Source: Gautieria morchelliformis (lineage: Eukaryota > Basidiomycota > Agaricomycetes > Gomphales > Gomphaceae). From it: DNA of 64,000 bases. Of the stretch, positions 700-28,300 are shown piece by piece. The position numbers and the translations under genes were made by a program. Where the stretch lies: the NCBI GenBank assembly GCA_015179125.1, contig WHVA01000047.1, positions 248,001 to 312,000 of the forward strand, given 5' to 3'. The notes under the pieces were generated by a model. It was given only the letters and a program-made list of their open reading frames with translations. It did not search any database and was not told where the DNA came from. The number at the start of each line of letters is the position of its first letter. Positions within the stretch are counted from its first letter, which is position 1.

Positions 700-2043
700 G
701 TTGTCTAAGTCCTCATCTGAACTGACACCCCTTGTTGGAACGGCATAGATTCACCGGCCTCACCATCATCACTATCATCGTCATTGACCACTTCCCAGTG
801 CATATGAGATGATTCCTGTCCTAGATGACCGATACCTCCACTGAAGTAGTGCATAAACATGTCCTGGTCCACAAGCCTGTGAAGACTTAATTAGAGTAAA
901 GAAACAATTACAATAGCATGATGCCTATTGATATAGAAAGATTCCCAATCTTGCTCATTCGGATAACTTCTTATAATTGATGGGCCTGGGCCGAGAAACT
1001 TGGAAGTATGTCCATATGTGAATGCAGGGATGATGTGGGACACATGAATGTTATGGGCAGGGTCTAGAATCCTGAAGCTAGGGCTATCTTGTTCATTGCC
1101 TACAAAGCCTACCCGGTCAAGATGAAGAGCTTTCCAGCCTGCATGGTAGCTGGTTCAGTTCCTAGCCAGTGTATCCATAGGAAATTGAATCTTTGCGGGG
1201 CTTGAGATTTCGAGGGGGGACCAGTATGGACAACCCAAGTATGGAAGATACCAAGAACTTGTGAATACCAAAAAGGGTGAGCATCTTGGGATGTCTGGTC
1301 ATCATGGGCTTTCAACATGACATAGCAGTGTGGAGTGGAAGGATTAATTGTGTCTTGTCCCCGACGGAGGTCATAAGTGGTATAGTTGATGCATAACACC
1401 TTGTGAGAACACATTTTGTTGTCCTTGAAGATTACAGTGGCACAATCAGATTCGGTAAAATTATGTTCATCGCCATCATAAGGGATGTCAAGGAGGTGGG
1501 CGAGGAGATGGTCCCATGGATGACATGCTAGATGTTATGAGCTGACACCAAAAAATGCGTGAACTTAGAATGTACCTTCAGGGCAGGGTCATTGTCATTC
1601 TTTCTAATCCACGTCCCAATATGAACTGGGTTTTTCTGACTTGCAGCGACATGATGGTGTGTGTCGGTGCTCATGTTTGACATTGGCTCAGACTCTGATA
1701 AGTCCAGGTGATGCATGCGATGACCTGTGCTGGTTTCCGCCTCTTTTCTGGCATCTACAATGTGGTGCAAGTTACTTTGGCGGCACTCTATGGAAGTGAG
1801 TTGCTTGGTGGGATTATTTTTGCTAGCGTGAGGGCAAGATGCCTTGGAGGTGTGATGCCCTAGCTCGGGCTGAAAGTAAAGTCAGATGATATAAAAGAAA
1901 GCATCCATTGGACAAACCGTTTGCCTGGAGTAGGAATCAGTGGTTCCAAACCAGCGAATTGTTGAGACGTAGTCTCCTAATGTGTGAAATTTGTAGGTCA
2001 ATAAATTGAGGGTCTTCGGCTTCTTGCCTCCGGCAGGAGTAGG
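700..2043 (-). pseudogene. Plavaka-type transposase, C-terminal half
   Basis: This is the distal half of a Plavaka-family (basidiomycete DNA transposon) protein. Reading leftwards on the minus strand, the conserved blocks appear in family order: TLNLLTYKFHTLGDYV followed by FGTTDSYS (about 1,925-2,020), HHHVAASQKNPVHIGTW (about 1,590-1,660), INYTTYDLRRGQDTINPS and HPFWYSQVLGIFH (about 1,250-1,400), HIIPAFTYGHTS (about 1,000-1,050) and DWESFYINR running on to LVDQDMFMHY (about 850-960). The same blocks occur in the plus-strand copy at 23,446-24,919. A short intron near 1,870-1,925 is plausible. The frame is not continuous, so this is a decayed copy. The N-terminal half resumes at 8,546, beyond a Ty3/gypsy insertion with TSD GGATG. 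Family assignment rests on remembered conserved blocks, not on a search. Confidence 0.8.
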
Positions 2044-2048
2044 GGATG

Positions 2049-2398
2049 TGTCAGGGTTTACGCATTTCCTTCCACAAGTTTCTATTTCCTTCCATGAGTT
2101 TCCATAACCTTCCATCACATTCTGTCACATGTCACATTCTGTCACATTCTGTCACATGTCACATTCTGTCACATTCTGTCACATGTCACATTCTGTCACC
2201 TTCCGTAACCTTCTACAAGTTTCCATCTCCCCTATTATGTAAGCCTTGCCAGCGCTATAAGACTGTAGCCCATGTGGTGGCGTTTCCTCAGCTTGATCTC
2301 TGAGGATACCCACTACACAGTTGGTCATTGTCCTAGTATCGGCTCTTATCTCCTTGAGTATCTTTGGTTGTGGCTTCGTCATTAGTGTTGCCCTCACA
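2049..2398 (+). repeat. 5' LTR of the chromovirus at 2,049-8,540
   Basis: 350 bp, starting TGTCAGGG and ending CCTCACA, matching 8,191-8,540 with about 8 differences. The first third (2,110-2,200) is a run of short repeats built on GTCACATTCT and ACATGTCACATTCTG. The remainder is unique sequence. Confidence 0.95.
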
Positions 2399-2458
2399 GA
2401 AGATCAAGCTCATAGGACGACCCCACACACTTTTCTTAACCAGCCTTCATCTCAGCCT

Positions 2459-3565
2459 ATGGCAGACCAACTCCCAGACGCATACTGGGACTCCCTAGGT
2501 GACCATGGGCCATTTCTTCGAGGCCTCCTTTCCAGCCAAGCACAGCAGCTGCAGCAACTTCAACTGCAGAATCAGGAACTGCACAGTCAGATTGTTAACG
2601 TTCATGACCACTTAGCCAATGCTGCCACCAACGCTGCTGTTGCTGCTGCTCAAGCCCTTGCGCCCTCAGTACCTCACAGTGTCCCTCCATCTACTCGCTC
2701 TATCAAAGCAGCGGAACCGGAGAAGTTCAATGGAGACCGTGCAGAGACTGAAGGGTTTATCAGGTCTATCAGATTGTCCATCGCTGTCCAGCCGGCATCC
2801 TTCCCAGATGAGCGCACAAAGATCCTATATGCTCTTTCCTTCATGACAGGAGGCTCTGCGGAGATATGGGCACACAACAAGACACAGGCTGTCATTGATG
2901 GCACCTCCTCTATATCCACTCTGGAGGGGTTCATTAAACGTGTGGAGGAGGCCTTTGGTGACCCAGATCGTGCCAGAACGGCTCGCACTAAACTGCATGA
3001 CCTTAGGATGGCGTCAGGAATGTCGGCAGATGAATACACGGCTCAATTTGAGATCCTGGCAGGCAGGACAGGCTTTAATGATGAGGCACTCGAGGATGCC
3101 TATGCTCGTGGCCTTCCAGCAGGTATCCTTGATAAGATCCACGCCCAGCCCTTTCTTCCATCCAACCTCAAAGCCTGGAAGGAAGCAGCCTGTCAGATTG
3201 ACCGCAATCATCGCCGTCTGTTAGAGGTCAGGAAGGCACAGACACCTCATGTCCCTAATCGCCCTCCTCCTGCACGTCCACTCCACACTCCTGCTACGGC
3301 TCCTGTTGTCACAGCACCACCCAGTAATGCGACACCTATGGACATTGACTCATCCCGCCGCCGCACCGAAACACGGACCTGCTACAACTGTAAGAGACCT
3401 GGTCACATTTCACCAGACTGTCCTGAACCTCGCAAGCCACGAATCCGCGCAAACCTCACGGAGGCGGACATTGCAGCAATTGTCTCTAAATCTGTGGCAG
3501 CGGCGATGGAGGAACGCAAACAGAAGGTGGAAGCCCCTGTCCAAGATGAAGGAAAGGGTTTTTAG
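2459..3565 (+). CDS. gag: Gag polyprotein of the chromovirus
   Basis: The predicted protein has 368 residues from the ATG at 2,459, the first inside the element. An upstream in-frame start at 2,321 lies within the LTR and is less likely. Order: a glutamine-rich coiled segment (about residues 20-50), an alanine-rich stretch, a central capsid-like region (about 80-270) with the typical retrotransposon-gag pattern around SIRLSIAVQPASFPDERTKI, then a CCHC zinc knuckle CYNCKRPGHISPDC (about residues 315-330). Gag packages the element RNA into particles. Its stop is 11 nt before the pol ORF, which is in another frame. How Pol is expressed cannot be told from sequence alone. Confidence 0.9.
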   Translation: MADQLPDAYWDSLGDHGPFLRGLLSSQAQQLQQLQLQNQELHSQIVNVHDHLANAATNAAVAAAQALAPSVPHSVPPSTRSIKAAEPEKFNGDRAETEGFIRSIRLSIAVQPASFPDERTKILYALSFMTGGSAEIWAHNKTQAVIDGTSSISTLEGFIKRVEEAFGDPDRARTARTKLHDLRMASGMSADEYTAQFEILAGRTGFNDEALEDAYARGLPAGILDKIHAQPFLPSNLKAWKEAACQIDRNHRRLLEVRKAQTPHVPNRPPPARPLHTPATAPVVTAPPSNATPMDIDSSRRRTETRTCYNCKRPGHISPDCPEPRKPRIRANLTEADIAAIVSKSVAAAMEERKQKVEAPVQDEGKGF

Positions 3566-3576
3566 GCCAGTCAGCG

Positions 3577-6500
3577 GTGAAAGACATGCCCCGCTCGACG
3601 AATCGGTTTTCAGTTCTCGAAACATGTACAATAGGGATCACAGGCGATATGATGCATCCTTCTCCTATCCCTGATCGAACTGAAACCAAACCAGCCATGC
3701 CAAAAACCCAACCCATCGCTCCAGTTGCTAATGCAAACCTTCCAGTCCCTCTATATGTCCGTACTGCTGACCTCCGCCGATGCACCAAAGTACCTCTCAA
3801 GGTCCACTCCGTTGACACAGGGCATCCACTTGCAATTGACTCCCTCCTTGACAGTGGTGCTACAGGGATGTTCATCGATGTGGAATTTGTAAGGGAACAC
3901 AGACTTCGGACCCGTCCCCTACCCCGTGCCATCCCCGTCTACAATATTGATGGTACCCCAAATGAGGCTGGCTCAATCAAGGAAGAAGTTGACCTCATTT
4001 GCACCTTTGGGGATCATACGGAACGTGCCACATTCTCTGTCACGAGCCTTGGACGACTTGCCATCATTCTTGGTCACACATGGCTTGTTGAACACAACCC
4101 AGAAGTTGACTGGCGTACAGGAGATGTGAAGATGACACGCTGTCCCAAGTCATGTGGGGGCAGACCTGTTGTCAGAGGGCCCACAGTCGAAACTGTTCCA
4201 GAAGAGAGTGTAGATCAAGAGGAGGTTCCCATACAGCACACCCGCTCCCTACTTGAGGAAGGAGACAGGACCTTTGTCATCTTTGTGAATGAGAGTCCTG
4301 AAATGATTGGCGCAGGCTGGACTGTCTCCCAACAGCTTGCTGAACGGGCCAGCAAGTCTGCACCAGTCAGATCCTTCGAGGACCTTGTCCCCAAACCATA
4401 CCAGGAGTTCAAGGATGTGTTTTCTAAGGAGTCATTTGACCAACTGCCTCCTCGAAAGCCCTGGGACCATGCAATTGAGCTCACTCCAGGTGCACAACCC
4501 TTCAGCACAAAGGTTTACCCAATGTCACCGGTTGAGCAAAGGGAACTGGATAACTTCCTTGAGGAGAACCTGAAGAGCCATCGTATGCGTCCTTCCAAGT
4601 CACCTATGGCATCTCCAGTCTTCTTTGTGAAGAAAAAGGACGGCAGTCTTAGATTTGTGCAAGACTACCGGAAGCTCAATGATATAACAATCAAGAATGC
4701 CTATCCTTTGCCCCTTGTTCCAGACATCATGAATAAGATTGCTGCTGGAAGGGCTAAATACTTCACAAAGCTTGACATTCGCTGGGGATATAATAATGTA
4801 CGCATAAAAGAGGGAGATGAGTGGAAGGCAGCCTTTCGGACAAATAGGGGCCTGTATGAACCTCTAGTCATGTTCTTTGGACTCACGAACAGCCCAGCAA
4901 CCTTCCAGACGATGATGAATGACATCTTCAAGAGTCTCATCGATGAAGGGGTTGTGGTGGTGTTCATGGACGACATTCTCATCTTCACAGAGTCGCTTGA
5001 AGAACATCGTAGGATTGTACGACGTGTCCTTGAAATCCTCCGGGCCAACAACCTGTACCTCAAACCTGAAAAATGCCTATTTGAGCAACTAGAGGTGGAG
5101 TATCTCGGCCTCATCCTCTCTCAAGGACAGGTTGCCATGGACCCAGTCAAGGTTGCAGGGGTGCGGGACTGGCCAATACCACATAACGTCACTGAAGTCA
5201 AATCATTCCTTGGTTTCATCAACTTCTACCGTAGATTTGTGGAAGACTTCTCACACATTGCAAAGCCCCTCAACCAGTTGACAAAACAGGATGCCCAATG
5301 GTCTTGGGATCCAAATGGCCCAGAGCAAATGTCCTTTGACAAGCTCAAACTCCTCATCACCTCAACACCGATCCTTGTCCTCCCTGATCAAGACAAACAT
5401 TTCCATCTTGAAACAGATGCCTCAGCCTATGCCACAGGAGCAGTACTGTCCCAGCTATGTGATGATGGCAAATGGCGGCCTGTGGGGTTTGTCTCCAAAA
5501 GCCTCAATGATGCTGAACGCAACTATGCCATCCATGACAAGGAGCTTCTTTCTGTGATTCGGGGATTAGAGGAATGGCGCCACATCTTAGAGGGAACAAA
5601 GCACAAGATTGAGATTCTCAATGACCATCAGAATCTCACCTACTTCCGCACTGCACAAAACCTGAACCGTCGTCAAGCACGCTGGTCACTCTACCTCTCT
5701 CGCTTTGATTTTGAGCTGATCCATCGTCCTGGTCGTCATTCAGCCAAGCCTGATGCACTCTCACGACGCGTGGATCATAAGCGGGGGGAGGAAGACAACC
5801 AAAATCAAGTCTTACTTACCCCTGACTTGTTCCACATCAAGGCGAATCCTCCAGAGGCTGGCGCGCAGTTAGTCCCAGGTGAAGGTGATGCTTTCCTCAA
5901 TCGAGTAAGGAACTGTGTAGACCGGGATGAAAAGGTTGTCAAGGCTCTCAAAGAACTGGGCTCCTCTGGAAATTTGCGAGGAGAAGAGTGGTCTGAACAG
6001 GATGGGCTTGTCCTCTATCACAACAAAGTGTATGTGCCGCTTGATGCAAAACTACGACATGACATAGTGAAAGCGCACCATGACATACCTCTCACCGGTC
6101 ACCCTGGTCGTTGGAGAACCACTGAACTAGTTGCTCGGAGTTACTGGTGGCCTGGGATGGGACGTTACATTGCAAAATACGTGAAGGCCTGTGACCTGTG
6201 CAACCGGACAAAAACCTTCCCTGCTTCTCCCATTGGCAAGCTTCTACCAAACCGTATCCCAGACCGTAGATGGCAGGTTATGTCTGTTGACTTGATCGTA
6301 GAACTGCCTACCAGTCATGGCTATGATGCTCTCCTTGTTGTCGTCGATCGCCTCTCAAAGCGTGCACATGTCATTCCCACCACTTCAGATGTAACTTCGG
6401 TGGGAGTTGCCCGACTCTTCCGTGATCATGTTTGGAAACTTCATGGGCTCCCTGAAGAAATCATCAGTGATCGAGGCACACAATTCATCTCCCAGTTCAT

Positions 6501-7476
6501 GCGTGAACTGAACAAACTTCTTGGTGTCAAAGTCGCTGCCTCTACTGCTTATCACCCCCAAACTGATGGACAGACTGAAAGGGTTAATCAGGAGATTGAG
6601 CAATACCTTCGACTATTCGTCAACCAGCGTCAGGATGATTGGTTTGAATGGATATCCTTGGCTGAGTTTGCCTATAACAACCGAATCCATGCCTCAACCC
6701 AGACTACACCCTTCATGTTGGACAGTGGCCAACATCCAAGGCTGGGACTGGAACCAGTTCGGGAAACTCGACTCGAGGCCCTGGATGAGTTCACAACACG
6801 GATGGAAGCGGCCACAAGAGAAGCTCGTTCGGCCCTGTCCAAGGCAGCAGAGGACATGGCACGCTTCTATGACGTGCACCATAAAGCAGCCCCAGTTTAT
6901 AAGCTTGGTGACAAGGTCTGGCTCAATGCACAAAACATCACAACCACTCGCCCAATGAAGAAGCTAGACCACAAGTGGCTAGGCCCCTACACTGTTAATA
7001 AGGTGGTCTCACGAAATGCCTATGGTCTAAATCTTCCTACATCCTTTGGTCGCACACATCCAGTGTTCTCTGTCGTCCTGCTTCGGCCATATGAAGATGA
7101 CCCAATCCTTGAACGTCATGCCCCTCCACCACCCCCCCCTGTCATACGGGATGGAGCCGAAGAATATGAAGTTGAAAGGATTCTAGACAGCAGGATGTTC
7201 CGTGGAAGGTTGGAGTATCTCGTGCGCTGGAAGGGCTATGGAGCTGCCGACGATCTCTGGCTACCAGCGAAAGATGTCTCTGGGGCAAAGCGACTCGTTA
7301 AAGAATTTCACCGACAGAACCCAGAGGCACCTCAACGTATCTCAGCAGCCACATATATGTCCCTCCCCTTCCAGAGATTTCAGAACTTCACAGAACCTTC
7401 CAGGCAAACTCTCTTCGACTGGACAGCAGGCAGGGCTTCTACTTATGATGTCAAGGGTCCAGAACCCCAAAGATAA
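3577..7476 (+). CDS. pol: Pol polyprotein: PR-RT-RH-IN-chromodomain
   Basis: A single open frame of 1,299 residues. Domains in order: aspartic protease with LLDSGATG (about residue 90); reverse transcriptase from FVQDYRKLND (about 358) to the active-site FMDD (about 463); RNase H with LETDASAYATGAVLS (about 610); integrase with an N-terminal HHCC zinc site (H..H about 830 to CDLC about 875), then D, D and E in SVDLIVELP, ISDRGTQF and QTDGQTERVNQE (about 903, 963, 1,001); and a C-terminal chromodomain YEVERILDSRMFRGRLEYL to LWLPAKDV (about 1,197-1,245). The order RT-RH-IN plus chromodomain defines a Ty3/gypsy chromovirus. The chromodomain usually steers integration to modified chromatin. Confidence 0.95.
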   Translation: MKDMPRSTNRFSVLETCTIGITGDMMHPSPIPDRTETKPAMPKTQPIAPVANANLPVPLYVRTADLRRCTKVPLKVHSVDTGHPLAIDSLLDSGATGMFIDVEFVREHRLRTRPLPRAIPVYNIDGTPNEAGSIKEEVDLICTFGDHTERATFSVTSLGRLAIILGHTWLVEHNPEVDWRTGDVKMTRCPKSCGGRPVVRGPTVETVPEESVDQEEVPIQHTRSLLEEGDRTFVIFVNESPEMIGAGWTVSQQLAERASKSAPVRSFEDLVPKPYQEFKDVFSKESFDQLPPRKPWDHAIELTPGAQPFSTKVYPMSPVEQRELDNFLEENLKSHRMRPSKSPMASPVFFVKKKDGSLRFVQDYRKLNDITIKNAYPLPLVPDIMNKIAAGRAKYFTKLDIRWGYNNVRIKEGDEWKAAFRTNRGLYEPLVMFFGLTNSPATFQTMMNDIFKSLIDEGVVVVFMDDILIFTESLEEHRRIVRRVLEILRANNLYLKPEKCLFEQLEVEYLGLILSQGQVAMDPVKVAGVRDWPIPHNVTEVKSFLGFINFYRRFVEDFSHIAKPLNQLTKQDAQWSWDPNGPEQMSFDKLKLLITSTPILVLPDQDKHFHLETDASAYATGAVLSQLCDDGKWRPVGFVSKSLNDAERNYAIHDKELLSVIRGLEEWRHILEGTKHKIEILNDHQNLTYFRTAQNLNRRQARWSLYLSRFDFELIHRPGRHSAKPDALSRRVDHKRGEEDNQNQVLLTPDLFHIKANPPEAGAQLVPGEGDAFLNRVRNCVDRDEKVVKALKELGSSGNLRGEEWSEQDGLVLYHNKVYVPLDAKLRHDIVKAHHDIPLTGHPGRWRTTELVARSYWWPGMGRYIAKYVKACDLCNRTKTFPASPIGKLLPNRIPDRRWQVMSVDLIVELPTSHGYDALLVVVDRLSKRAHVIPTTSDVTSVGVARLFRDHVWKLHGLPEEIISDRGTQFISQFMRELNKLLGVKVAASTAYHPQTDGQTERVNQEIEQYLRLFVNQRQDDWFEWISLAEFAYNNRIHASTQTTPFMLDSGQHPRLGLEPVRETRLEALDEFTTRMEAATREARSALSKAAEDMARFYDVHHKAAPVYKLGDKVWLNAQNITTTRPMKKLDHKWLGPYTVNKVVSRNAYGLNLPTSFGRTHPVFSVVLLRPYEDDPILERHAPPPPPPVIRDGAEEYEVERILDSRMFRGRLEYLVRWKGYGAADDLWLPAKDVSGAKRLVKEFHRQNPEAPQRISAATYMSLPFQRFQNFTEPSRQTLFDWTAGRASTYDVKGPEPQR

Positions 7477-7582
7477 GCGATATCGGCCTCTGCCTAACCA
7501 ATTCATTCCGATAAGCTATATATCCCCTCTCCACCTGTGACCGCTCACTTCCACTGCATCGACCCCACCACATTCATCAACC

Positions 7583-8137
7583 ATGTCCTCGCCCGCCATT
7601 GAGCTTGTTGCCCTCCCCAGCTTCACCCAAAACCTCTCTGACCTGCCAAACATGTCACGTGTCGATCCCACCCTCCTGCACTTCTCCGGCTTCTCGTCAT
7701 CCAGAGCAGCCAGTGAAGCCAAGCTACAAAGGATGCTTGACTGCCGTGATCTCGACGTCGCATGGTCTTCAAAGTGGTCCGTCAGCTCTGAGGACCTCAC
7801 ACCAGCGGAGAGTCAGGCGCCCACTCGCCCTGCACTCGCATTCCTCAGACCCCGACACAGACGAGAGAACACGTACTACGTCGGCGACCCTGTCTTCCTC
7901 AACGATGGAACCCCCCCTTGTGGAACTCCCTACACTTTCGAAGGCTGGGTGGGGCGGCGTTTTCGTAACATGGCAGGAGAGCGAATACGTCGAGCAAGGT
8001 TCCGAGGGCCGCACTTGCCCATGGACCCCAATCCCCCTGAGCTCATCATTGACCTGCGTTACCAGGAAGGGAAGGGCCAGGAGAGATGGTGGTCCCGCCT
8101 ATGGCATACTTGGAAACGATGTCTCGGTGGATGTTGA
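7583..8137 (+). CDS. extra ORF between pol and 3' LTR
   Basis: An open frame of 184 residues in sense orientation, 106 nt after the pol stop and 53 nt before the 3' LTR. It opens MSSPAIELVALPSFTQNL and ends with a basic, Trp-rich tail (WWSRLWHTWKRCLGGC). It has no signal peptide, membrane span or envelope-like feature and I recognise no domain. A second overlapping frame (7,599-8,144) is also open but starts later and looks less protein-like. Location alone suggests an accessory protein of this retrotransposon lineage; function unknown. It could be untranslated, but an ORF of this length at this GC is more than I would expect by chance. Confidence 0.55.
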   Translation: MSSPAIELVALPSFTQNLSDLPNMSRVDPTLLHFSGFSSSRAASEAKLQRMLDCRDLDVAWSSKWSVSSEDLTPAESQAPTRPALAFLRPRHRRENTYYVGDPVFLNDGTPPCGTPYTFEGWVGRRFRNMAGERIRRARFRGPHLPMDPNPPELIIDLRYQEGKGQERWWSRLWHTWKRCLGGC

Positions 8138-8190
8138 GGGCTAGGTGGCAGCTGTGCTTGTCGGGACGACAAGCATTGAGAGGGGGGTGA

Positions 8191-8540
8191 TGTCAGGGTT
8201 CACGCATTTCCTTCCACAAGTTTCTATTTCCTTCCATGAGTTTCCATAACCTTCCGTCACATTCCATCACATGTCACATTCTGTCACCTTCTGTCACATG
8301 TCACATTCTGTCACATTCTGTCACATGTCACATTCCGTCACCTTCCGTAACCTTCTACAAGTTTCCGTCTCCCCTATTATGTAAGCCTTGCCAGCGCTAT
8401 AAGACTGTAGCCCGTGTGGTGGCGTTTCCTCAGCTTGATCTCTGAGGATACCCACTACACAGTTGGTCATTGTCCTAGTATCGGCTCTTATCTCCTTGAG
8501 TATCTTTGGTTGTGGCTTCGTCATTAGTGTTGCCCTCACA
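8191..8540 (+). repeat. 3' LTR of the chromovirus
   Basis: 350 bp, same ends as the 5' LTR, preceded by the purine tract GAGAGGGGGGTGA and followed by the TSD GGATG (8,541-8,545). The short-repeat section near 8,250-8,345 carries most of the differences from the other LTR. Confidence 0.95.
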
Positions 8541-8545
8541 GGATG

Positions 8546-11493
8546 CCAGGTTTTGACGAGCTAGACGTTGAGTGTGTGCACTCACTTCGTGATCGAGTTC
8601 AAAAGTAGGGATTATATCACAAGTTTGAGACTTGAATCGACACATTTGGTGCCCAAACATGGTAGTGATTGTGGTCAAGGCCATGAGAGTGACCCTGGTG
8701 TGCATTTTTAGCTTCACAAGTGAATGAAACCAGTGTGCAATAAACAGAAGAGAAAGGACAATCTCATCATGCAGAGAAGGGAGATGGCCATCAAATACTG
8801 CCATGGAACACTTCGACAACCTTCAGTTGAGTACAAGAGATGATGGATGTGGACTGACTAGAAGAATATCTTCAAAGTCGTGGGCAGCAAGGTGTTTCAG
8901 ACCTGATATGTTGGAATGAAATTGGCAAATAGTATCTCGTCTGAATGGAGGAGTGTTATGAAACATATTCAACATATTAGAAAGATTTTTCTTGCAACTG
9001 TAGCAGGGGGTGGAGAGGGCACATACTGATAATCAAGCTCCACGATGGCTGCAGCGCTTTGCGTGGTTATGAGATGGAGGAGGTGAATAAGCAATGTTTT
9101 CCAGGCGCAAAGCTCCCACTCATGCATGAAGTTGACAGCAGGCATGCAAAACAAGAAGAACCACAAGTCATGCACCAATGGTACATGCGGCTCAGGTAGG
9201 CGGCTGGAGAAATCTGAGAATGCATTCTGCAGAAGAGAAAGAGTCAGTTATGCAAGGATAGTGATAACATCCACTGACCTTATTTGGAGTTAATGACTGT
9301 TCTTTAAGAACTCTCTTGACAGCTTCACTTGTGACATTACAACCTTCTTTAAATATGAATTTATGGGATAGTGAGAATTTGCAGCATCAGTCATTATCAT
9401 CCTTGCGCAATAGAGCTTCATGACGCTGAGCATCTAATTTAGTACCTAACTCGGGGACCCGAGTCATAGGAATGAGACAGTGTGGACAAGGACATCCACC
9501 AAGATCTCAAATTGAACAAAGGATTATTCTGGTGTGTCATCAGATCCATGAGATGATTGTAGTGAGTGGGAAGACTAACTTCTCAGGATAATCCGCCGTG
9601 TATGTAAAGGTCCAAGGATAGAGTCTCTGAGTTATTCCATCCGCCCACCTAATCACAATTCCATGGACCCATGCATGTAAGAACTCTTCATCTAGAAGAA
9701 GTGCCCAACAAGCTTGGAAGAGTTCACACTTCAGATGTGTCAAGATAGCAGCCTTCGCATTTGCCAATATATTCTGGAATTGTGCTAAAAAATTGTTTAT
9801 TGCGTCAGGGAGCTATCAGTCATTTAGTGAGCTCATATTTATATGCATCTTGAATAGAGAGATCACCTTTGGAAAGTAGGCTATGTGGTGAGTGGCTCTG
9901 GCATAGGGCCTAGTCCTCTCCCACTTTGATTGATTGGCAAAGTAGGTACAGCTGGGCCAAAGCAAGGCAGTTCCAAAACTGGTCAACTGGAGACTATCAG
10001 ATGTAAACATCATCCTTGCTACTGCCTGAGGAAGATTACAATCTGGCTCTGGCAGTAGATGTTGGATCTATTCTTCCACGGCCAGAAATGAGTCCGAGGT
10101 GTAAACCTCATCAAAAACACGTTGAGGTGCAGCTTGCTCGTTTGGGGGTTGCCAAAATTGTTTGTAGCCTGAAAAATGAAATCCTTTTGTGGCTGGAGAT
10201 GTGAAGGCCGCCTTTATAACCTCTGTGAGCTGGTGATAATAAAAGTGAGGGACTGAAAATTTGGGTGCCTCTGTGTTGCCGAGAGAATGTGGGACACTGT
10301 CAGGTACCAGTATATCAACAGCACTCTCAATCCAACCATCCGTGAATGCAAATAAACCGGAGTGTGAATCCACATCATTCTTATCTGCAACTTGAAGTTG
10401 ACGGGGCGACTGGAGAAGCTTATCCAATGTGTGCAAGTCGGCTACTTGAACATCCAGAGGGTTGAACCCTTCTGGAGCATGGAATACCTCCCTAACAAGT
10501 TGATCATGATTGTCAACACTTTTAAGTGATCCACAATTCCAAAACCAATTCAGCAGATTGAGGGTATTTGGATTCTTGAATGGACCAAAATCTGGCTTTG
10601 TGGAGTTCTCGGTTAAGGTCTGTGATGTCCGGGTTCTCATCTGGGGTATTTTTGGGGATGCCTTGATACTCTTGATAGAGACCAAATGTATTTGCAATGG
10701 TACATATCGTCTGTCGCACACATAATCGAACACGCGTGATCCCGAACCCATTTGGAGAATCATTTTGGGTGTGGGGGGTAGACTCCATACTTTCAGCTGG
10801 AGCCTCAATGACCGAGCTTGACAGGGAGTTGTCCTCAAGGGGTCTGGGTCCTTCAGGGAGATAATCGGGCGGCAGTTGGGGTAGAAGTCTCCGTGATATC
10901 CAACTCGTTGATATGTTAGAGTTGACCTCTGAACAACCATTGTGGGGGGATATTCTTGGACTGTCAGGAAGCTGATGTTGTGGCTGGGTACCTTCGGTTA
11001 TGCGGTTTTCGGGAAGCTGAATCGATCCGCTAGTAGATGGGATACTCGCATGCCAGGAATCTTTGACAATGCGGTTTTTGAAGGACTGGATGGGTCTGCT
11101 GATAGGTGGGATGCACTCAGGCTGAAGGGACTGCACCTGCCTGTGATCTGACAAACTTCCGTCGACCACCATAGGTTGATGATCTATGTCGTCCGTGTCA
11201 TCCACGTCCATGTGCTTGTTATACTCAATGTTGCTGGACTTAAAAAAAACATTGATCAGAGTTGAGTTCAATCATATTTTATTACCAAAGTTACTCAGGT
11301 TTGTTGCATCCATCCGTTGCTTGCATTTTATTTCAATCAGTTCTTGATGTGCTTTGTGCACTCTCTGCCGTAATGCCTCCTGCCTTGCTGTTTGTTCTAC
11401 CATGTATAACTTGCAAAAATTTTGATGGGTTGTCAGACTGGACTCCTTTTCCCATGACTTTCCACAGCGGGCTACACACTGGTAAGTGTCCAT
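8546..11493 (-). pseudogene. Plavaka-type transposase, N-terminal half
   Basis: The minus-strand protein starts at the ATG at 11,493 with a zinc-finger-like block CVARCGKSWEKESSLTTHQ...C, then an acidic disordered region (10,640-11,230). Family blocks follow: VRLCVRQTICTIANTFGLYQ (about 10,660-10,730), LLNWFWNCGSLKS (about 10,530), GFHFSGYKQFWQPPNEQ with QRVFDEVYTSDSFL (about 10,075-10,190), SFGTALLWPSCTYFANQSKW (about 9,920-9,990), FQACWALLLDEEFLHAWVHG and TYTADYPEK (about 9,590-9,740), FMHEWELCAWK (about 9,090-9,140) and HSLVKLKMHT (about 8,700). An intron at about 11,228-11,274 and others are likely. Frames change near 10,640 and elsewhere, so the gene is dead. It is the other half of the gene at 700-2,043. 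Confidence 0.8.
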
Positions 11494-15063: not shown

Positions 15064-18000
15064 TCATGTGTGGAAGAGGGAGGAATGGAAGGACAGACCA
15101 AGGTAATCAGAAACAAGATTGAATGTTGTTGCAGTCTGCAACCTGACATTCTTATAAGGATCATTTTGCATAGCCTGAATGTCCAAAATCAGGGTGTCAT
15201 TGATAATATGCCCACAAAGGTCATCTTTGAACCTGTGAGCCTATATGACAATTTGGAGGAGGAAACTCACTGTGATGTATGGCAGCTTCCAAGGTTTTCA
15301 AAGCCTGACATCGGACATCCTCATGTTTGTCAGCCAAAATCCCTTGAATGGCGGATACTATATCAGGGTTGAAAATCAGAGTATGGAGGTCATCTATGTA
15401 CCTGTAAGCATGTGTTACAATTTACAAGGGGAGCCTCACCATTCTCCAAGGAAGCTGTGAGGTTTTTTAAAGCTCGGATCTGAACTTGCCAATCTTTATC
15501 TCTCAAGTTGCTTTGAATGGTAGAAATTATGCCCGGAGTAAAAATTAGCTCATAAGGAGCACCTATGCATCAGTGAGTAAGTGATATAGTTTATGCAGAG
15601 GTCTCACTGTGATCCATAGAAGCTACTAGGGTGTAGGCCTTGTATTGGACATTCTCATTTGTATCAGCCAGTAACCCTTGGATAATAGATATTGTTTCAC
15701 TGTTAAAAATCAGGGTATGGAAGTCATCTGTGTATCTATAAGCATGGGTTATAATTCACAAGGGGATACTCACTGTGATCCAAAGAAGCTACTAAGGTTT
15801 CCAAGGCCCATATCTGAATTCTCCAATGTTCAGCTCTCAGCTTATTGTGAATGGCAGAAATTATCCCAGGAATAGAAATTAGATCATAAAGATGACCTGT
15901 GCATCTGTAAGTATGTGATGTAATTTATGCAGCAGTCTCACTGTGATGCGTAGAAGCTACCAGGGTGGCTAAGGCCTCACACTGAACAGCCTCATCTTCA
16001 TCAGCCAGGAACCCTTGGATAGTTGGTATCATATCAGAGGTCAAAATCAGAGCATGAGGGTTACCTATGTATCTGTAAGTATGTATGATAATTCAAAAGG
16101 GGATGCTCACTGTTATGCAAAGAAGCTACTAAGGTTTTCAAAGCCTGTATTTGAATCCATTTTTCAGCTGGCAGTTTCTTGTGAATTGCAGAAATTATAT
16201 CAGGTGTAGAGATTAGATCATAAAGATTACCTGTGCATCTGTAAGTATGTGATATAATTTATGCAGAGGTCTCACTGTGGTCCATAGACGCTACTAGCGT
16301 GTCTAAGGCCTTGCATTGGACATTGCTATCTTCATCAGCCAGTAACTCTTGGGTAGTAGATATCACATGAGGGTTAAAAATCAAAGCACGGAGGTCATCT
16401 ATGTGCATGTAAGTATTTGTTATAATTCAAAAGGGGGTACCCACTATGATCCAAAGAAGCTGCTAGGGTTTTCAAAGCCCTTATCCGAACCATCCAATGT
16501 TCAGCCCTCAGCTGATTGTGAATGGCAGAAATCATGCCAGGAGTAAAAATTAGATAATGAAGATTCCCTGTGCATCTGTAAGTATGTGATCTACTTTATG
16601 CAGAGGTCTCACTGTGATCCATAGAAGCTAGTAGGATATCCAAGGCATGGCATTGAACATCCTCATCTTTATCAGCTAGGTACCCTTGGATAGTTGATAG
16701 TGTTTTAGAGTTAAAAACCAGACTATGGAGGTCATCTGCATTCCTGTAAGCATGGGTTATAATTCATAAAAAGATATTCACTGTGAGCCATGGAAGCTAT
16801 GATGGTTGCTGAAGCATGGAACTGAGCTCTCCAACTTTTATTTCTCAGCTTGTTATAAACTGCAGAAATCATGCTAGGAGTGAAAATTAGATCATAAAGA
16901 TCACCTGTGCATCTGTAAGTATGTGATATAATTTCAGCAGATCTCTCACTGTGCTCCATAGAAGCTACTAGGGTGCCTAATGCCTCGCATTGAACATCCT
17001 CATCTTCATCAGCCAGTAACCCTTGGATAGTTGGTATCATATCAGGGGTTAAAATCAGAGCATGGGGGTTACCTATGTACCTATAAGTAAGTGTTATGAT
17101 TCAAAATGGTATACTCACTGTGATCCAAAGCAGCTACTAAAGTTTTCCAAACCCGTATTCGAAATCTCCCATGTTCAGCTCTCAGCTTATTGTGAATGGC
17201 AGAAATTATCCCAGGAATAGAAATTACATCATAAAGATTACCTGTGCACCCGTAAGTATGTGATGTAATGTATGTAAAGGTCTCACCGTGATGCATAGAA
17301 GCTACTAGGATGCCTAAGGCCTCACATTGGACATTATCATCTTCACTGGCCAGTAACCCCTGGATGGTACATATCATATCAGGATTGGAAATTAGCTTAT
17401 GAAGGTTATCTAGGTATCTCTAAGCATGTGTTATATTTCAAAGGATAATACTCACTGTGATCCATAGATGCTCCTATGACTTTCAAGGCCTGGTATTGTA
17501 TATCCACATCACCACAAGTCAGTTTGCTTTGAAGGATAGATATAATTGCACCATCATTTTGGTTGAAAAGCATTTGTAGGTAATCATTCCTGTATATACC
17601 TTCCAAAATATCAGTTGCCAATATATTATCTCAAAATATTATATCTCACTCCCATTTAGAAGCCACCTTAATATTTGGAGTGATGACAAGGTCACTTGTG
17701 AGATATTCCCTTCCAACCCTCTTTCTAATGGCCTTATCATTCTACTTTCCATTCTTTTATCTAGGTTGATAATGATCACTTGCTTTAGGAGAATCTCATG
17801 CTTTAAAGTATCCACAGCCACTTACTCCTAAATCTGCAGGTTTCCATGAAGGAAGCTATCCATTTTACAAGTTTCTCATCATTCTCCCAACCCTTCACAC
17901 AGAGGAATGTCTCTACCATCTCTTCATCCAGGCATATCCCTATAATAGAGACTAATTAGATGATATAATATGACAGCTCTTCCACCTTACATGTTCGCTT

Positions 18001-20099
18001 ACTCAATGCTATGAGCACATGAAATAGATTGTCCCACATCTCAGATGTCATAGTATGCTCAGACCCCATGAGGCTAAAAAGCACTGGGATTACACCCTGG
18101 TCCACTAGTGTTTCTGAACCCCACCCTAATACCAACAATTCGTATACTTAGCTTGTATCACATTCAATACCAAAACACTCACAAGACCAGCTCATCACTA
18201 ACAGACGATGGAGCCAGACACCCTTTTCGGTGTCAGGTCCTGTTTTTAGTCTCTGAATGACTTCTTTCATGGCGGTACCATCAAAAATATCCAGTTCAAG
18301 GACTTCTTTGAAAATGTCAGCCCAACCCCTCCACTCATGATGTCCCCCGCCCACTAGGTTTGTCCATTCTTTGACACTGCTCTCAGGGCTCAGTTTTGCT
18401 TTAGGGCAGTAGGAGGTGGGACAAAAAGCAACTGAAGCATGGATCTTTTGACCAGGCTTCATGTTTTGACCATGCCCCTTGTACATACTGAACATTGGTC
18501 CCAATTAGCCAACCCTCAAAGACCTATATATCAAGCTCACCGGTAGGTCGTTGATGACGAATCCTTATATGAAAGCCTCTTAATGGGAAGCCACTCAAAT
18601 ATTTGCCATACCAGAGTCAGTGACTCCTTGACCTCCCCTAGATTCTTCCAATCCCAATCAACCTTCGTCGGCCGCATCTGCAGGCCATTGGAGATAGCTT
18701 CATATGACATCCAAAGACCAGATGTTTTACCAAGTTTCAGGTTCAGGTTGAGTTGATTGCCACCCCCACTATGCACGATTGTCAGGATGCGGACCCAAGC
18801 AAAGAGGACACGCACATGTCTGAATGCGTCCCAGGAAACCAGACCTCTTTGATGCGGGGTCGGGAAGCGGAGCGCTTATGTCCATTTTCGTAGTTTTCAC
18901 CTTGTCTTCGTCAGCTGCGAGATCTGCGGAGCGTCTAGCCTTGGCAGCCTGGGAAGCGTCTTCCTTTCGCTGTGCGACCTTTCGTTGATACACACCGCCA
19001 TGCGCATATTCGGGTAGGAATTTGACTCGGCGCTCATCGAGCGCAAGCGCATGGCGGAAGAAGCAAACATGGTCTGTTTCATCTGTGAGAGGCAGAACTT
19101 TGCTCCGGATAGTGCCCACTGAGGAGACTGTATCCCTGAGATGAATTCTTAGTCGAGGTCGACGAAGAACCAGGCATTGAACAATCACCATACGCCAATA
19201 AAGTGAACACGGACATTCTCTTGCGAGAATGTTGTCTTGAAGCGCTCCGCCATATTGACAGGTGTCGGTTTGACAGGCCCTTTACGGAGGAGAAGGCGCT
19301 GCAATAACTTCTTCGGCTGGGGAGGATAATACTCCTTGCTCTTCTCATCCGCATAGAGCTCATATGCGCTGGAGAATAACAATAAGCTGGGGCCCAGACA
19401 TTTAAGTTCGGAAGGACACTAACAATGGTATTTGCTCTTCGTTTCCCTTATGAACCAAGCCAACCTGCCACACCAAGACCGAGAAATCACTAAACATCAT
19501 GAGGGCGGGGAAAGGGAACGTGCCTTGTGGATCATACCGGCCAAAGCACGGACCTGGTAGGCACCGCGAGAGAACCCTGGTGTTGATTCTCAGGACCGTT
19601 GAGAAAGGTGCTACCCTGGGGCTCACCAAACAAGTAGATACGATCACCGTGTTGATAATTTTGTGAGAGCCATCGATATGCAGCTATTACGATCTTTTCG
19701 AAGTTCCTGAACGATGGGGCGTCAATATTATTCGATTGCCAGTGAGGATAGTGGAGATATTACCAGGCAATCGCGAGATCTATCTTGTTATCCACGACCT
19801 GTTTCAAGTAACTCCATGATTTCCAGGATGGTTTGGCGTACGTGCCGATACCGCTGTTGTAATACGTGAGCTGGTCGTTGCCCTTGATAAGTTGACTATA
19901 GAGTTCTATGACGTTCGTATTCTAATGGGATGTGTCAGACGCAGTATCGTGGGTTGCAAGGAAAGGGCGCGCGAACGTTTGGTCCAAATTGATTGGATGT
20001 GCCGTCGATGCACACCACAAGGTTCTGTCCTTTCTTCTCACTCGAACACGCACAGCTCGTTCGCTCCTCGTCAGGTTTCACAGCATCAGATTCTATGTC
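15064..20099 (-). CDS. Tle1-like (DUF2235) alpha/beta hydrolase fused to ARM/HEAT repeats
   Basis: A many-exon minus-strand gene. The hydrolase part begins by 20,099 with QNLVVCIDGTSNQFGPN. Introns at 19,922-19,976, 19,707-19,763 and 19,577-19,626 join NVIELYSQLIKGNDQL, NFEKIVIAAYRWLSQNY and DRIYLFGFSRGAYQVRALAGMI. This supplies the nucleophile motif GFSRG. Then come VGLVHKGNEEQIPF, AYELYADEK, FIGVWDTVSSVG, HVCFFRHALALDERRVKFLP and HSDIGGGNQ, followed by WMSYEAISNGLQMRPTKVDW and LPIKRLSYKD. These are the ordered blocks of fungal DUF2235 proteins, relatives of bacterial Tle1 phospholipases. From about 18,140 down, the exons encode ARM/HEAT-type helices (GWGSETLVDQGVIPVLFSLMG), then the amplified array. 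Exon joins I checked keep frame with 45-60-nt introns, so the hydrolase looks intact; the joint near 17,830 is unresolved. The first exon and start codon are not resolved, and the stop near 15,064 is tentative. Substrate is unknown; lipid hydrolysis is inferred from family. Confidence 0.75.
15130..17460 (-). repeat. tandem array of ARM/HEAT exon pairs, about 336-bp period
   Basis: About seven A units and seven B units alternate. A exons read like FNPDMIPTIQGLLADEDE then VQCEALGTLVASMDHS. B exons read like GNLYDLISIPGIISAIHNK then LRAEHWRI..WALKTLVAS. Each exon encodes about 43 residues, one helical repeat, and ends in GGATCACA before GTGAG. A-unit markers lie at about 15,332, 15,668, 16,000, 16,335, 16,673, 17,010 and 17,348. 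Introns are about 45 nt and are as similar between units as the exons are, so whole exon-intron pairs were duplicated. Every unit I translated stayed open. Confidence 0.85.
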
Positions 20100-20995: not shown

Positions 20996-23900
20996 ATGCC
21001 GGTCAGCTGTTCAGGATGTCATCGCGCATTTGTTCGGCAGTCAGACCTGGGCAAGCATGAGCGCAAATGTGCTGACGTGCGTGCCGCCTGTTACGAAGTA
21101 GAGAAGCGACTTCGGAAGCGTCGCCGCTCCCATAGATCCCGTTCTCCACATAATACAAAGAGGCCGCACTTGGACAAGGAGCCGGAAGCTCCGCGAAAGC
21201 CTGCGTTGCCGGTGGAGGTAAGTGTCGTCGTTTCCCAGGGCTGTTGGAAGCCTGAATGCCCTGTCTTTAGATACCAGAATCAAGTACTACGGGCCGGCTC
21301 CGAGGGGAACCATGGTCAGAACCGCCGTGTGCAGATGCAGCATCGTATACCGACAGTTCACTTCCAGGCCTTCCACGCGACCAGCCACACATGGAAGGTC
21401 TGCAAGTGAGCACAGGCGAAGTGGCAATGGGTCGAGGCATGCGCAAGAAGAGGCCTGCTCCCAAGCTGCGCCCAGATGTGCTGCCCGATGGACCGGCTCC
21501 ACTACCCTCTCCCATACAGCCACCCACCGAGGAGAGTGATGATAGTGGCGTTCCTTGTCCACGTCGGTTCCTTCAGATCGGGAGAAATCTGCGCCTGGTG
21601 TTGACAGAGACAGTCTGCACGGCCATCAATGCTTTTGGGCTTTCACGGCTCTATTATGGACGACCGAGTCGCATTCCAGACGAATATCTTGCAGCCGGTG
21701 AGACGGTTGCTGCATCACCTGCTTCTCGGCCCCCCTCCCTCGATGCGTCACTGTGGCCATATCCGAATATTAGTTCCTGGCGCCTGGGAAGCTGGTTCTG
21801 GGGGAGCCGTGATACTAAATCAAAGGCAAGGTTTAAGGATCTCATCAACAATGTGTTGCTTTCACATGATTTTAACGTCAGGGACCTCGAGGGTGTGGCT
21901 TGGGATAGTATAGATGAGTCGCTTGCGGGGGCTCAAGGTGAGAAACAATATGGTGGAGAGGGGTGGCAAGAATCCACGGTACACATCGAGATTCCAACTG
22001 GAGTGAAAAAGAAGGCCGCCGGCAGCCATCAGTTCGAAAGCAAACAAAGTTTTGAAATCCAGGGGATGTGGCATCGTTCACTGACAGCTCTCATTCGTTC
22101 TGTTTTTCAAGACGACCCGGCAGCTCAGTACTTCCATTTTAACCCTTTCAAGCAATTCTGGAAAGATGGGACATCGAAACTCCAGCGTGTCCGAGATGAG
22201 CTATTCAACTCAGACGCATGGCTCCGGGAACATGAGGCTATCCAGAATCTGCCTCAAAAGGTAGGGGACAACTTCCCTTGGTGCCTGGCGGCATTGATGT
22301 TTTGGTCGGATGCAACCCATCTGGCCCAGTTTGGTCAGGCCAAGCATGGCCGATCTATTTGTTCTTTGGTAACCAGTCCAAATGGTTGCGTTGTAAACCA
22401 TCTGCATAGGCATGTCATCACGTCGCGTATTTGCCAGGTGTGCGTGACTTTTGTTGTTGTTTTGTCAAATTGGCTCTAATCGAAGGTTCAGCTTCCCGAC
22501 AGCATTCAAGACTTCATTCGCGCCTGCACCAAAGGTCGTGCGCTGGATCCCTTGATGACGCATTGCCGTCGCGAGGTCTACCATGCCGCGCTCAGGGTCC
22601 TGTTGGACGAGGATTTCATTGAGGCCTGGAAAAACGGTATGCTAATTCGGTGTTATGATGGTGTGGTGCGTTGGATATTCCCCCGCATCTTCACATGGTC
22701 TGCGGACTACCCGGAGAAGTGAGTCCAGATCATATGCCGGCCCTCAAACTGACAGGACTCATATCAGGGTTCTACTTGCGTGCATCCGAGATTTGGGCCG
22801 CTGTCCGTGTCCGCGGTGTATGGTATGCAAAGAGCATATATCTAGACTCGGGACGGCTCAGGATTGTCAAACTCGAGCACACCCAAGAACAGATAATGAC
22901 CAGCGCCGCTACGACGTGCAAGCGGCCCGCCGTATTATTTATGAGGATGGGTACGTAGTTAACAGTGACGCTGTGGACGCAATTCTCAAGGCAAACTCAC
23001 TTATGCCAACGGAGGTACGACTGATTAAACTCCATCCTAACAAGCTGTTGACATGGTGTGTTGGTATAGAATGCTTTCTCGCATGCCCTCTCTTGGGCCA
23101 ATTTCAATTTCTTCCAAATACTCGCATGTGATCTCATGCATGAGGTCAAACTCAGGGTCTGGAAGGCCCTCTTCACTCACTTGGTACGGATCTTGGACAG
23201 CGAGGGTGCTTCAAAGGTTCAGGAACTCAATGAGAGGTAGATGCCATCTCAACATATCTATGTCTTTTCATGTGCTTCCAGGTTCCGGTCAATTCCCACA
23301 TTTGGTCGAGCCACAGTGCGACGCTTTGCGCACAACATCGCTGACATGAAGAAACTGGCTGCCTGGGATTTTGAGGACATCTTACAGGCACGTCAATGCT
23401 AAGATCAAACATATATGTTCCCTTTTGACACATTGATAGTGCGCTATGCCCCTGTTGGAAGGGCTCCTACCTGAGCCATGGAATAGCCATATCCAAATTT
23501 TACTGTTTAACCTGGCCTGGTGGCACGGCCTTGCGAAGCTCCGCATGCACACAGATGACACACTGGAAAGGCTTGATGCCCAAACTGTCGAACTTGGCAA
23601 ATCCCTGCGTTTTTTCGCTGAAACAATTTGTCCACAATTTGCTACTAGGGAGACACCCCGCGAGGCGGCTGCACGTGCTCGGGCAGCCGCCAGGAAAGAT
23701 GTTTCCAACCACGCCAAGGGTAAACAGCCTGTGGGTACCGCTCCATCTTCCCACTCTGCACGCTGCCCTCGTACGTTCAACTTGAAAACCTACAAGTTAC
23801 ACGCGCTTGGACATTATGTTCGGGACATCCGTGAGTTTGGTACTACAGATTCATATTCAACCCAAATTGTAGGTTGGGCCTGGCACCATGCGCGGTTGCA

Positions 23901-25361: not shown

Positions 25362-28300
25362 TCATTAAAAAACTGGTAAGTATACAAATCTGTGAACTCG
25401 CTAACATAAAACTGCTTGGAACGGTCCAATGAATTCTCTGTCGTCATGGTACGATCAATCTTTTGGCCAAATCGAGGGATTAAATGGCAGCTGCAGCGAA
25501 TCGATTGGACGCTCACAACGGCCGCATGTCCTTTGCCTTGGGTGGGTGACACGGTGTACATGTCAACACCTGTGCATGGTTGTCGAAACTCGGAATACCA
25601 CTCAACGTACACGAGTGGGTGCGGGTATTCGATGCGAGAGGGCAGCCAGAAGATCGTCCGTACTCGCCCGACACGATAACCTAAGTGGGTAAGTGCATCA
25701 GTACACATAGAGTTATGCATCGGGGCTCACCTAATGCACCAGTCTCTTGTGCATTCGGGCCATAATGGATCAGCACTGTATCGAAGTGTTCTGGGACTTC
25801 AGGGGTCCTGCCGCGGCGTGGCACTCGGGGCGTAGCTCGGATGACATCTTTGATCACGGTATCGTCAATTTGTTGGATTGAACGGAGCATGAAGCTAATG
25901 CGTTTATACACGGGCAGCCGTGTATAAACACTAAGATCCAAGGTACACCTGGGAAGGTAAAACCTGAGGAAAGCAGTCAGCGCAGGGATAAACTCGGTGG
26001 CGCCGAATTCATTGATAAGCCTCGACACGCTGGTGTTCGGGAAGCCGGGACGTTTAGCGATGTGGTATGTTCGGCCCACTGTTTCCTCTGGTACACTTGC
26101 TGCCAGTGACGCTGGCGGTGCGGCAGTTGGCACCGGGATGAAACGCACCAAACGGCAAAGATTTTCCTCACGATCTTCATCATCCACATCAGCTTCACCT
26201 GGGGAGAGAGATGATAGGAAGCTGCCGAAGGAATGGAGTTGTTCTTGTCTAGTAAGCCATCTGGTCATCTGGATTATAAAGTCCTTACGACTGCTGGCGC
26301 GGTAACCCACTTTAGAGAAGTCAATGTGCAGTCTCTCGGGCAATTCAGTGTTGAAGCCGTCGGCTGTCCCCTGAGATATGATAGACTCAGTGTAGTGTTC
26401 TATCATATGTAGCTTGGGAATTTGAAAATGCTCTTGGATCTTGCTGTCGACGAAAACTCCTTTGTAGCGGTGGAAGTGGTCCAGGGCATCTTGGAGGCAG
26501 TTCAAGGTGGTTGTCGTGTGTGAGGGATATTGTGCGAGGTAAACAAAATCCAGGACAGCCCGTGCCACCTTGAGAGCGTGAGGTGGGAGCGCACTGGCCA
26601 TCAAGCCCACGAACACTTTCTCCATATTCTTGTACTCCGTGCCTGACCACTGGCTGATGGTCGAGATTCCCTTCTTGAAGTGATGGACACTGGGGTGACT
26701 CAGGACAGCCTGGAAACGTGCATCAGTTTCGGGATGAGTGGCTACCTTCATGCACCAGGTGGACAGATGGTCCTTGAATACCCCTTTGTGCAATTGGTGT
26801 AGGATGTCCGGGGTCAGGCAGCGGAAAATGTCACAGTGAGGGAGATTTTCCCAGAATGGCTGCCTGACCTCACGGATGCCCACGTTGTCACAGGGACGAG
26901 CCCCTTCCGCACCATCGGTGTTGATGTGCTGAATGTGATCCGCTGGACATCAAAAAAGAGTGCCAGGGTCATCTGCGAAGATAGTGGCAAGGGGGTCCCC
27001 ACGATCCTCAGGGTAGCACTTGCATATTGGACACCAGTTTTCCTTGACACAAGCGACAAGGGCCTGTTCCGGGAAATTGGCAACATAAGCTGCGAGGACT
27101 GGGAATACCTTTCGGATGCCACCGTCTGCGCAAAGAACATCCACTCCACTCGCACCGGCATTGACCATTCGTGAGAGGATAGTGCAAATACAGTAATGGA
27201 AAAGTTGCCACCCCTGGGCCTTGCATGTCCCAGCAGAGAAACACTTCAGCTTCGATATTGGGAGATATCCGAGAAGGATGTTCGCATGTGCTGACACTTT
27301 GCGACGTGTGGCCTTCGGGATGTTCCCAATCGTCAGATAAACTGGCCATGCGGCCTTGTCCCCACTGAATTGGGAGAGACGTGTCTTGTCTGATGCCAGG
27401 ATCACAGGGCATATCGTGGCCCCCGAGGGGAGTTTGGACTGTGAATCCAGGATGGGTGAGCTCTCGGGTCCTTTATTATCATGGTAGGACTTACCTGGAG
27501 ATCCCACCACCAATCGGCCGTCCACATCTCATTGTAGAGCGTTTGGTCCTTTTTTCATCCTTGAAGATGTGTTCTGGCACATAATGGAGCACCTCGCGGA
27601 AGGCCGGGTTGCCCATGAGTTCACGGACACATTCCATGGGATCCCGGTAGAACAGCTCGAGTTCTTCGACCATGTACTCTCCATTCGCATCCTTGACATC
27701 ACCATGCACTGTGATAGATTCACAGAGAAACTCAGGTCCACCGGGGGGCAGTGCATCAACCTTGGCGAGTAGTGTTCGCTTGTTGGTGAATGACGTCTGT
27801 GTGCGTGTGGTCATCTAGAGCGAGAGGTGAGTTCATGGATGTCCTGCGAGGAATAAAGAAGTCAAACTCACTATTGGCAGTTTGAGCAGTTTGTCCATGG
27901 TGGTAAAACTCATACCACTGGTCATGAGTGTCTGCGCGAGCTCCCGTTCCTCCTGATCTGCAAATGGCTCATAAAGCGACCCCCCCAGGTTGCGCCGAGG
28001 TTCATGAAGGAGGTCGAAGCGTGTGGTCCCATGTGCATGGGCCTCACCTGCAGGTCCAGGAAATACCTCCACATGTGTGGGGGATCCTGGAGCAGGTGGC
28101 CGGTTTGTAGGGACCGTTGAGGAAGAATGCCCCGCTCGGCTTCGGGGGTTCGAGGCCAAACCATCGTCCATGCTTGTATCCGGGGGAGGATCCAGCTGGT
28201 CAAACTCTACATCCATGGCCTCACTCTGCCAGCCTGCAGATGGCTCGTCGTTGCGTGGATGGGTTTCCGGATCAAATGGGTCGTACACCCGCACTTGGCG

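Follow-up and report, generated by a model that had tools for sequence, protein, structure and literature searches.

A lipase-like enzyme joined to a long helical rod in Gautieria morchelliformis: a gene family that may encode a self-defence receptor lacking the usual switch domain

Fungal NOD-like receptors (nucleotide-binding oligomerization domain-like receptors, NLRs) of the HNWD/HET-E type, and likewise the patatin-NLR PLP-1, carry an effector head followed by C-terminal repeats. Passages of PMC4986451 describe these repeats as under positive selection, variable in number and paired with an effector, and a portion of PMC10197012 reports that the patatin-like phospholipase head of PLP-1 is required for cell death. 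Zhang et al. 2012 (PMC3482391) list DUF2235 as a toxin domain transferred to fungi, propose lipids as its target and suggest a role in fungal conflict for some toxin domains of this sort. Here we describe a gene that joins a DUF2235 head to a repeat tail, located at positions 15064–20099 of a 64,000-nucleotide stretch of Gautieria morchelliformis DNA (GCA_015179125.1, contig WHVA01000047.1, forward-strand positions 248,001 to 312,000; hereafter the window), together with its paralogs in the 122 Mb assembly of this species (Gomphales, Phallomycetidae). A sequence-only reading of the same DNA had proposed a recognition-plus-effector system. We assign a probability of roughly 0.5 to the reading that the Gautieria family is an intracellular receptor that combines recognition with a hydrolase, has no nucleotide-binding domain and has diversified one repeat at a time. 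In this form, the two-part protein family appears from sequence searches to have been seen so far only in Gautieria.

Of the features that define fungal NLRs (STAND proteins), an effector-like N-terminal domain and superstructure-forming repeats are both present. Unlike fungal NLRs, the family is without a nucleotide-binding domain, and its repeats are armadillo (ARM) repeats. No NACHT or NB-ARC match was listed at E<=1 when Pfam was scanned with 612 aa of the L024 paralog, covering its head and the beginning of its array (1 family), or with the 849-aa tail of the window gene (25 families), under HMMER filters that discard most matches above ~0.1. Separate NACHT-like matches occur elsewhere in the genome (32 at exon level, most of them weak). 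Internal repeat identity is far under the 85% used to mark highly conserved fungal NLR repeats, a mark that applies to a fraction of NLRs and not to all. Lacking a NOD, the family is by definition not an NLR; by analogy, it may nevertheless work like one.

Each half of the protein also resembles a known system. Bacterial Tle1 (4O5P, which we take to be Tle1, the record itself saying 'uncharacterized protein') and Tox-ABhydrolase-1 align with the Gautieria head at the GFSRG, DTV and HSDxGGG motifs; over its whole sequence, 4O5P matches weakly (E=0.059), and the Gautieria protein is multi-exon with an ARM tail. To our knowledge, type VI secretion systems (T6SS) are not expected in basidiomycete hosts. 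The tail shares its three-helix, ~41-residue solenoid with beta-catenin, importin-alpha and designed armadillo repeat proteins (ArmRPs), at 11–17% identity among the matches listed. In contrast to these proteins, the Gautieria array is fused to a hydrolase, and its groove-face positions vary most.

Exons were placed by splice sites, open frames and alignment of 14 copies (the window and 13 paralogs). The gene lies on the minus strand and comprises 9 head exons (20099–18183) and 18 repeat exons (18125–15064). The ends proposed earlier are exact: the first aligned exon starts at base 20099, and the TGA stop finishes at 15064. The exons are also splice-compatible, as had been suggested: joined from 18487 to 15064, they give one frame whose single stop is terminal, and the remaining two frames contain 85 stops each. 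All array exons are open and start in phase 1, with GT donors and AG acceptors throughout. Donor 18182 and acceptor 18126 join head to array in frame. One gene containing both parts is well supported, since 12 of the 14 copies retain the GT donor at the junction, and the two deposited proteins, P0001 and P0002, run across it. The intron 19523–19465 has a gcacg donor, and this GC-AG intron is probably real because the GC donor is present in all 14 copies. P0001, a partial Gautieria morchelliformis entry whose first 290 head residues are identical, is the window's own deposited protein. It retains exactly 7 of the 18 repeat exons, plus an eighth with a different boundary, so the public model hides most of the array.

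The domain search proposed in the sequence-only reading places PF09994 (T6SS_Tle1-like_cat, DUF2235) in the head and ARM repeats in the tail. PF09994 scores 53.2, 42.8 and 33.0 bits in the window frames and 276.6 bits on the L024 head, against a curated cut-off of 27. Splicing restores GFSRG across intron 19626–19577 and HSDIGGG across 18815–18769, and the GxSxG nucleophile and HSDxGGG motifs are conserved in 44 aligned proteins. The hydrolase had been called intact-looking; the head of the window copy is not intact, being without the family ATG and carrying a one-base frame break in the linker of head exon 7. One-base gaps also occur between near-identical copies (3, beside 3 mismatches, over 3.8 kb of L024 and L029; 2 inside the gene for L010 and L027), so this break may be an assembly error; the start-codon difference, unlike the break, is a substitution. 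A 56-nt intron over the break (18901–18846) restores the frame, yet most paralogs read through this interval in frame, making a real or assembly indel likelier than an intron. The P0001 model skips 26 nt here, shorter than all other introns of the gene. Judged from its sequence, the window copy may have a dead head and a whole array, or may itself be a pseudogene.

The tail had been described as about 14 or more repeats. The count is higher, at 18 repeat exons, and exons 4–17 carry the regular ARM units. Tandem Repeats Finder independently detects the array (15315–17476, period 337, 6.4 copies, score 2260). Pfam, an AlphaFold2 (AF2) model and Foldseek/VIA all identify the repeats as ARM units forming a solenoid, in agreement with the ARM/HEAT label of the sequence-only reading. 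At the sequence level, the tail matches RSPH14 (E=2.7e-5) and Vac8 (E~7e-4) in the PDB. Leucine 20 is invariant in 95 of 95 repeat units, and leucine 35 in all 51 type-A units.

Fourteen loci, the window included, have a closely related head and were aligned; the more distant heads L011–L015, L020 and L022 were excluded. Array matches number 186 genome-wide, including the further contigs C929, C143, C981 and C261. Modelled repeat exons number 18 in the window, L024 and L026, 20 in L021, 24 in L019a, 16 in L027, 12 in L017, 11 in L023, 4 in each of L009, L010, L019b and L025, and 0 in L016 and L028. The model accepts stop-free exons only, so short counts indicate a broken chain, except in L019b, where the examined stretch ends 76 bases on. 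L019a is the copy found to be whole in its start, its head frame and all of its modelled array exons; at one head splice acceptor, L024 differs by a single base. Repeat number thus varies between paralogs of one genome (18, 20 and 24). L010 and L027 are near-identical (98.7% over 9.25 kb) and, from their sequences, may be alleles; no repeat-number difference was seen between these two collinear loci. A further array copy, L029:2596-4281 (G000:C261:159095-160780), is 99.84% identical to the L024 array over 3.8 kb, introns included. It has no DUF2235 head within the stretch examined, and a copia-type open reading frame (ORF; Retrotran_gag_2, Pol_BBD) runs in frame into its array exon 1.

Selection was assessed in the four loci (window, L024, L026 and L027) whose arrays were modelled with 16–18 repeats in matching order. 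Across array repeats 5–16 (492 codons), the nonsynonymous-to-synonymous rate ratio (omega) is 1.08, which is not distinguishable from 1 (twice the log-likelihood difference, 2dlnL, 0.45), and the six array pairs give 0.87–1.37 by counting. For the head (431 of 480 codons), omega is 0.446, well under 1 (2dlnL 20.0), indicating purifying selection. In site-class models run with kappa and branch ratios held fixed, M1a is rejected for M2a in the array, with 17.5% of codons in a class of omega 3.37 (2dlnL 22.8, p=1.1e-5), compared with p=0.14 in the head. The test still gives p=1.6e-5 once repeats 7 and 14 are omitted, their closest counterparts in L024 and L026 sitting at another position. In these four paralogs, the array shows relaxed or diversifying evolution and the head purifying selection, and fast evolution of the repeat domain relative to the head, in line with the sequence-only reading, is supported (omega 1.08 versus 0.45; M2a p=1e-5).

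Five sites have a posterior above 0.9, at unit positions 33, 30, 36, 26 and 25. We take positions 26, 29, 30, 33, 36, 37 and 40 to be the peptide groove of designed ArmRPs; literature queries returned no source for these numbers. Averaged over 12 repeats, these positions have a higher posterior than the rest (permutation p=0.0021), position 37 on its own being low. The highest averages lie around helix 3, for which the permutation p as a block is 0.067, and the posterior shows a periodicity of 3.6 residues (p=0.025; 3.3 and 3.9 residues give 0.18 and 0.07). In the four paralogs, omega is not tellingly above 1 for groove-only (1.06) or helix-3-only (0.99) positions. A portion of PMC10684580 places peptide-binding shifts mostly in helix 3.

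The array had also been described as recently expanded and of high identity. This does not hold for the window copy: the mean amino-acid identity of its same-type pairs is 56%, and only 1 of 25 reaches 85%. At the nucleotide level, same-type repeats in the window are 74% identical and their introns 78%, versus 0.84–0.86 for same-position repeats across paralogs. Within the four paralogs, 87 of 120 comparisons pair a repeat best with the one at the same position. Most of the array is therefore older than these gene duplications. One fresh exon duplication is seen in L021 (exons 7 and 8, 95%). Divergence between L010 and L027 rises from 0.4% in the head and upstream to 2.2% in the array and 2.1% downstream; array introns are as divergent as exons (22/781 versus 40/1965 bases). 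A 250-bp stretch at repeat 5 holds 25 of the 99 mismatches, a patch that appears conversion-like, as a conversion tract would give.

A search with the L024 protein scored 7995 candidates, of which 1858 had E<=1e-3. Tails among the best 120 of these, hand-read from partial Pfam annotation (P0002 was labelled ARM from its sequence), are WD40 in 93, ARM/HEAT in 14, TPR in 6 and unassigned in 7. Most of the 120 are named 'hypothetical', 'WD40 repeat-like' or 'T6SS phospholipase effector Tle1-like', and by our reading their named sources are Agaricomycetes. Agaricomycete PF09994 proteins with WD40, TPR or ARM/HEAT tails (for example P0009 from Clathrus columnatus, P0005 and P0006 from Pleurotus, and P0036 from Laccaria bicolor) have the same head followed by a repeat superstructure, and no NACHT or NB-ARC was found in P0009 or P0036 at E<=0.001. 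The Gautieria ARM array, built of single-repeat phase-1 exons, differs from these relatives in having no match outside the species: a repeat-only search, which needs shared words, returned 3 proteins, all from Gautieria morchelliformis. In P0036, a DUF2235-TPR protein, matches to EAD11 and TPR-S lie just over the cut-offs; we take both to be conflict-system domains.

In part of PMC10269595, Armillaria ostoyae upregulates DUF2235 among other domains under mycoparasitic Trichoderma attack, and part of PMC7824268 names one DUF2235 gene of Botrytis in a plant infection data set. The term 'DUF2235' is absent from the main texts of PMC4986451, PMC10197012 and PMC9815663. Queries of the open-access literature by DUF2235 or Pfam name, with subscription papers outside their scope, returned no paper on an immune role of fungal DUF2235 proteins, the Armillaria passage coming closest.

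The coordinates of the gene are collected in Table 1. Elsewhere in the window, gypsy-like ORFs (2297–3565 and 3550–7476, by reading) lie within 2042–8483, flanked by two 300-nt direct repeats that are 96% identical at a spacing of 6142. Plavaka transposase matches occur at 21271–22479 (under the curated cut-off) and 25681–26949, and 10068–11271 resembles these by eye. A Helitron-like region spans 49647–53574, with a PIF1 helicase match in 50711–52306.

Table 1 Exons of the head-plus-array gene in the window.
Feature	Position	Strand	Remarks
Head exon 1	19977..20099	-	Without ATG where paralogs start; upstream exon 20225-20208 is a guess
Head exon 2	19764..19921	-	
Head exon 3	19627..19706	-	
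Head exon 4	19524..19576	-	Nucleophile elbow, GFSRG, its G codon taking the first base from exon 3; GC-AG intron next
Head exon 5	19424..19464	-	
Head exon 6	19189..19368	-	
Head exon 7	18816..19135	-	WDTV and linker; one-base frame break between 18901 and 18860 relative to paralogs; HSDI at end
Head exon 8	18541..18768	-	Opens with GGG of HSDIGGG
Head exon 9	18183..18487	-	Connects head and array
Array exon 1	18003..18125	-	3' end possibly 17991, as in P0001
Array exon 2	17826..17939	-	
Array exon 3	17650..17760	-	
Array exon 4	17456..17599	-	
Array exons 5-17	15271..17409	-	Thirteen exons of 120-123 nt in phase 1, each encoding a single ARM repeat; alternating types A/B, 337-bp period; last 14 introns of the array 45-46 nt
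Array exon 18	15064..15224	-	C-terminal cap and TGA stop

Under the receptor reading, an N-terminal DUF2235/Tle1-like serine hydrolase, most likely lipid-acting, would be coupled to a C-terminal ARM solenoid of ~18–24 repeats that binds a ligand along the helix-3 groove. The array would capture a non-self or altered-self protein, binding would free or cluster the hydrolase, and the hydrolase would attack membrane lipid, resulting in cell death or lipid signalling. Because each repeat occupies one symmetric (phase 1-1) exon, recombination and gene conversion could add or swap whole repeats with the frame unbroken. Enzyme activity, substrate, ligand, regulation and immune role are all inferred.

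A number of observations weigh against this reading. Support for M2a weakens to p=0.023 when repeats 7, 8, 12, 14 and 15, which are mispaired or carry indels, are left out, and three of these repeats (7, 8 and 14) hold four of the five sites with a posterior above 0.9; gene conversion can moreover inflate site-class tests. By counting, the L019a and L021 arrays give an omega of 0.52 (0.42–0.62), and, although index pairing is doubtful there, this pair argues against a uniform array signal. Across 95 repeat units from eight genes, omega is 0.62 for type A and 0.75 for type B, and a per-position excess of change reaches p<0.05, uncorrected, only at position 40 of 41. On a head tree built from 118 of the 120 listed proteins (P0003 and P0004 were excluded as over-long), tails of one type group together, with 6 label changes against a shuffled mean of 26.1, or 3 when unlabelled tails are ignored. 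This rules out rampant tail swapping between heads and indicates that tails change rarely and are not freely exchanged. Many copies are also broken: the array chain stops after 4 exons in L009, L010 and L025 despite remaining locus sequence, and the start ATG missing from the window head is present in 12 of 13 paralogs (the 13th, L026, runs off its contig).

An alternative is a decaying, transposon-associated family whose members spread along with repeats and have mostly become pseudogenes, the array omega near 1 then reflecting relaxed constraint. The Plavaka and PIF1-helicase coding sequence in the window, the gypsy- and copia-like ORFs (by reading), the startless and frame-broken window head, the stops or frame changes in the modelled heads of L016, L019b, L021, L025, L027 and L028, and the copia Gag ORF that stands where the head would be in L029 are consistent with such decay. 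However, the modelled arrays of the window (18), L021 (20), L024 (18), L026 (18) and L019a (24) are stop-free to the last repeat type, leucines 20 and 35 are fixed in their units, a class of omega 3.4 is preferred over neutrality, and the head is constrained at omega 0.45; we regard decay as rather unlikely. An ordinary lipid hydrolase with an ARM tether (a Vac8-like scaffold), duplicated for dosage or membrane specificity and involving no non-self recognition, would fit the RSPH14 and Vac8 matches of the tail and the common use of ARM arrays as scaffolds. Many copies per genome, varying repeat number and fast array evolution would be unusual in a housekeeping scaffold, and the word-based repeat search stayed within the species, making a tether improbable in our view. 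That head and array are two separate adjacent genes, split near 18,140, is very hard to credit given the in-frame join at 18182/18126, the retained GT donor and two deposited models that span the junction, even though the junction intron of the window is inferred and a headless array exists (L029).

If the recognition reading is true, fungal innate immunity gains a class of effectors without a NOD, their executioner being a toxin domain of bacterial type, and the exon-per-repeat ARM array becomes a testable model for generating binding specificity. More broadly, and only tentatively, at clearly less than even odds, mushroom-forming fungi would possess a second kind of intracellular receptor for immunity or allorecognition, one that needs no nucleotide-binding switch and in which a Tle1-like lipid hydrolase is wired to a repeat sensor. 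In Gautieria this sensor would be an ARM solenoid, its groove diversified by positive selection and its one-repeat-per-exon layout acting as an exon-shuffling machine. The Gautieria family, in which a lipase-like enzyme is joined to a long helical rod, may be a self-defence receptor lacking the usual switch domain.

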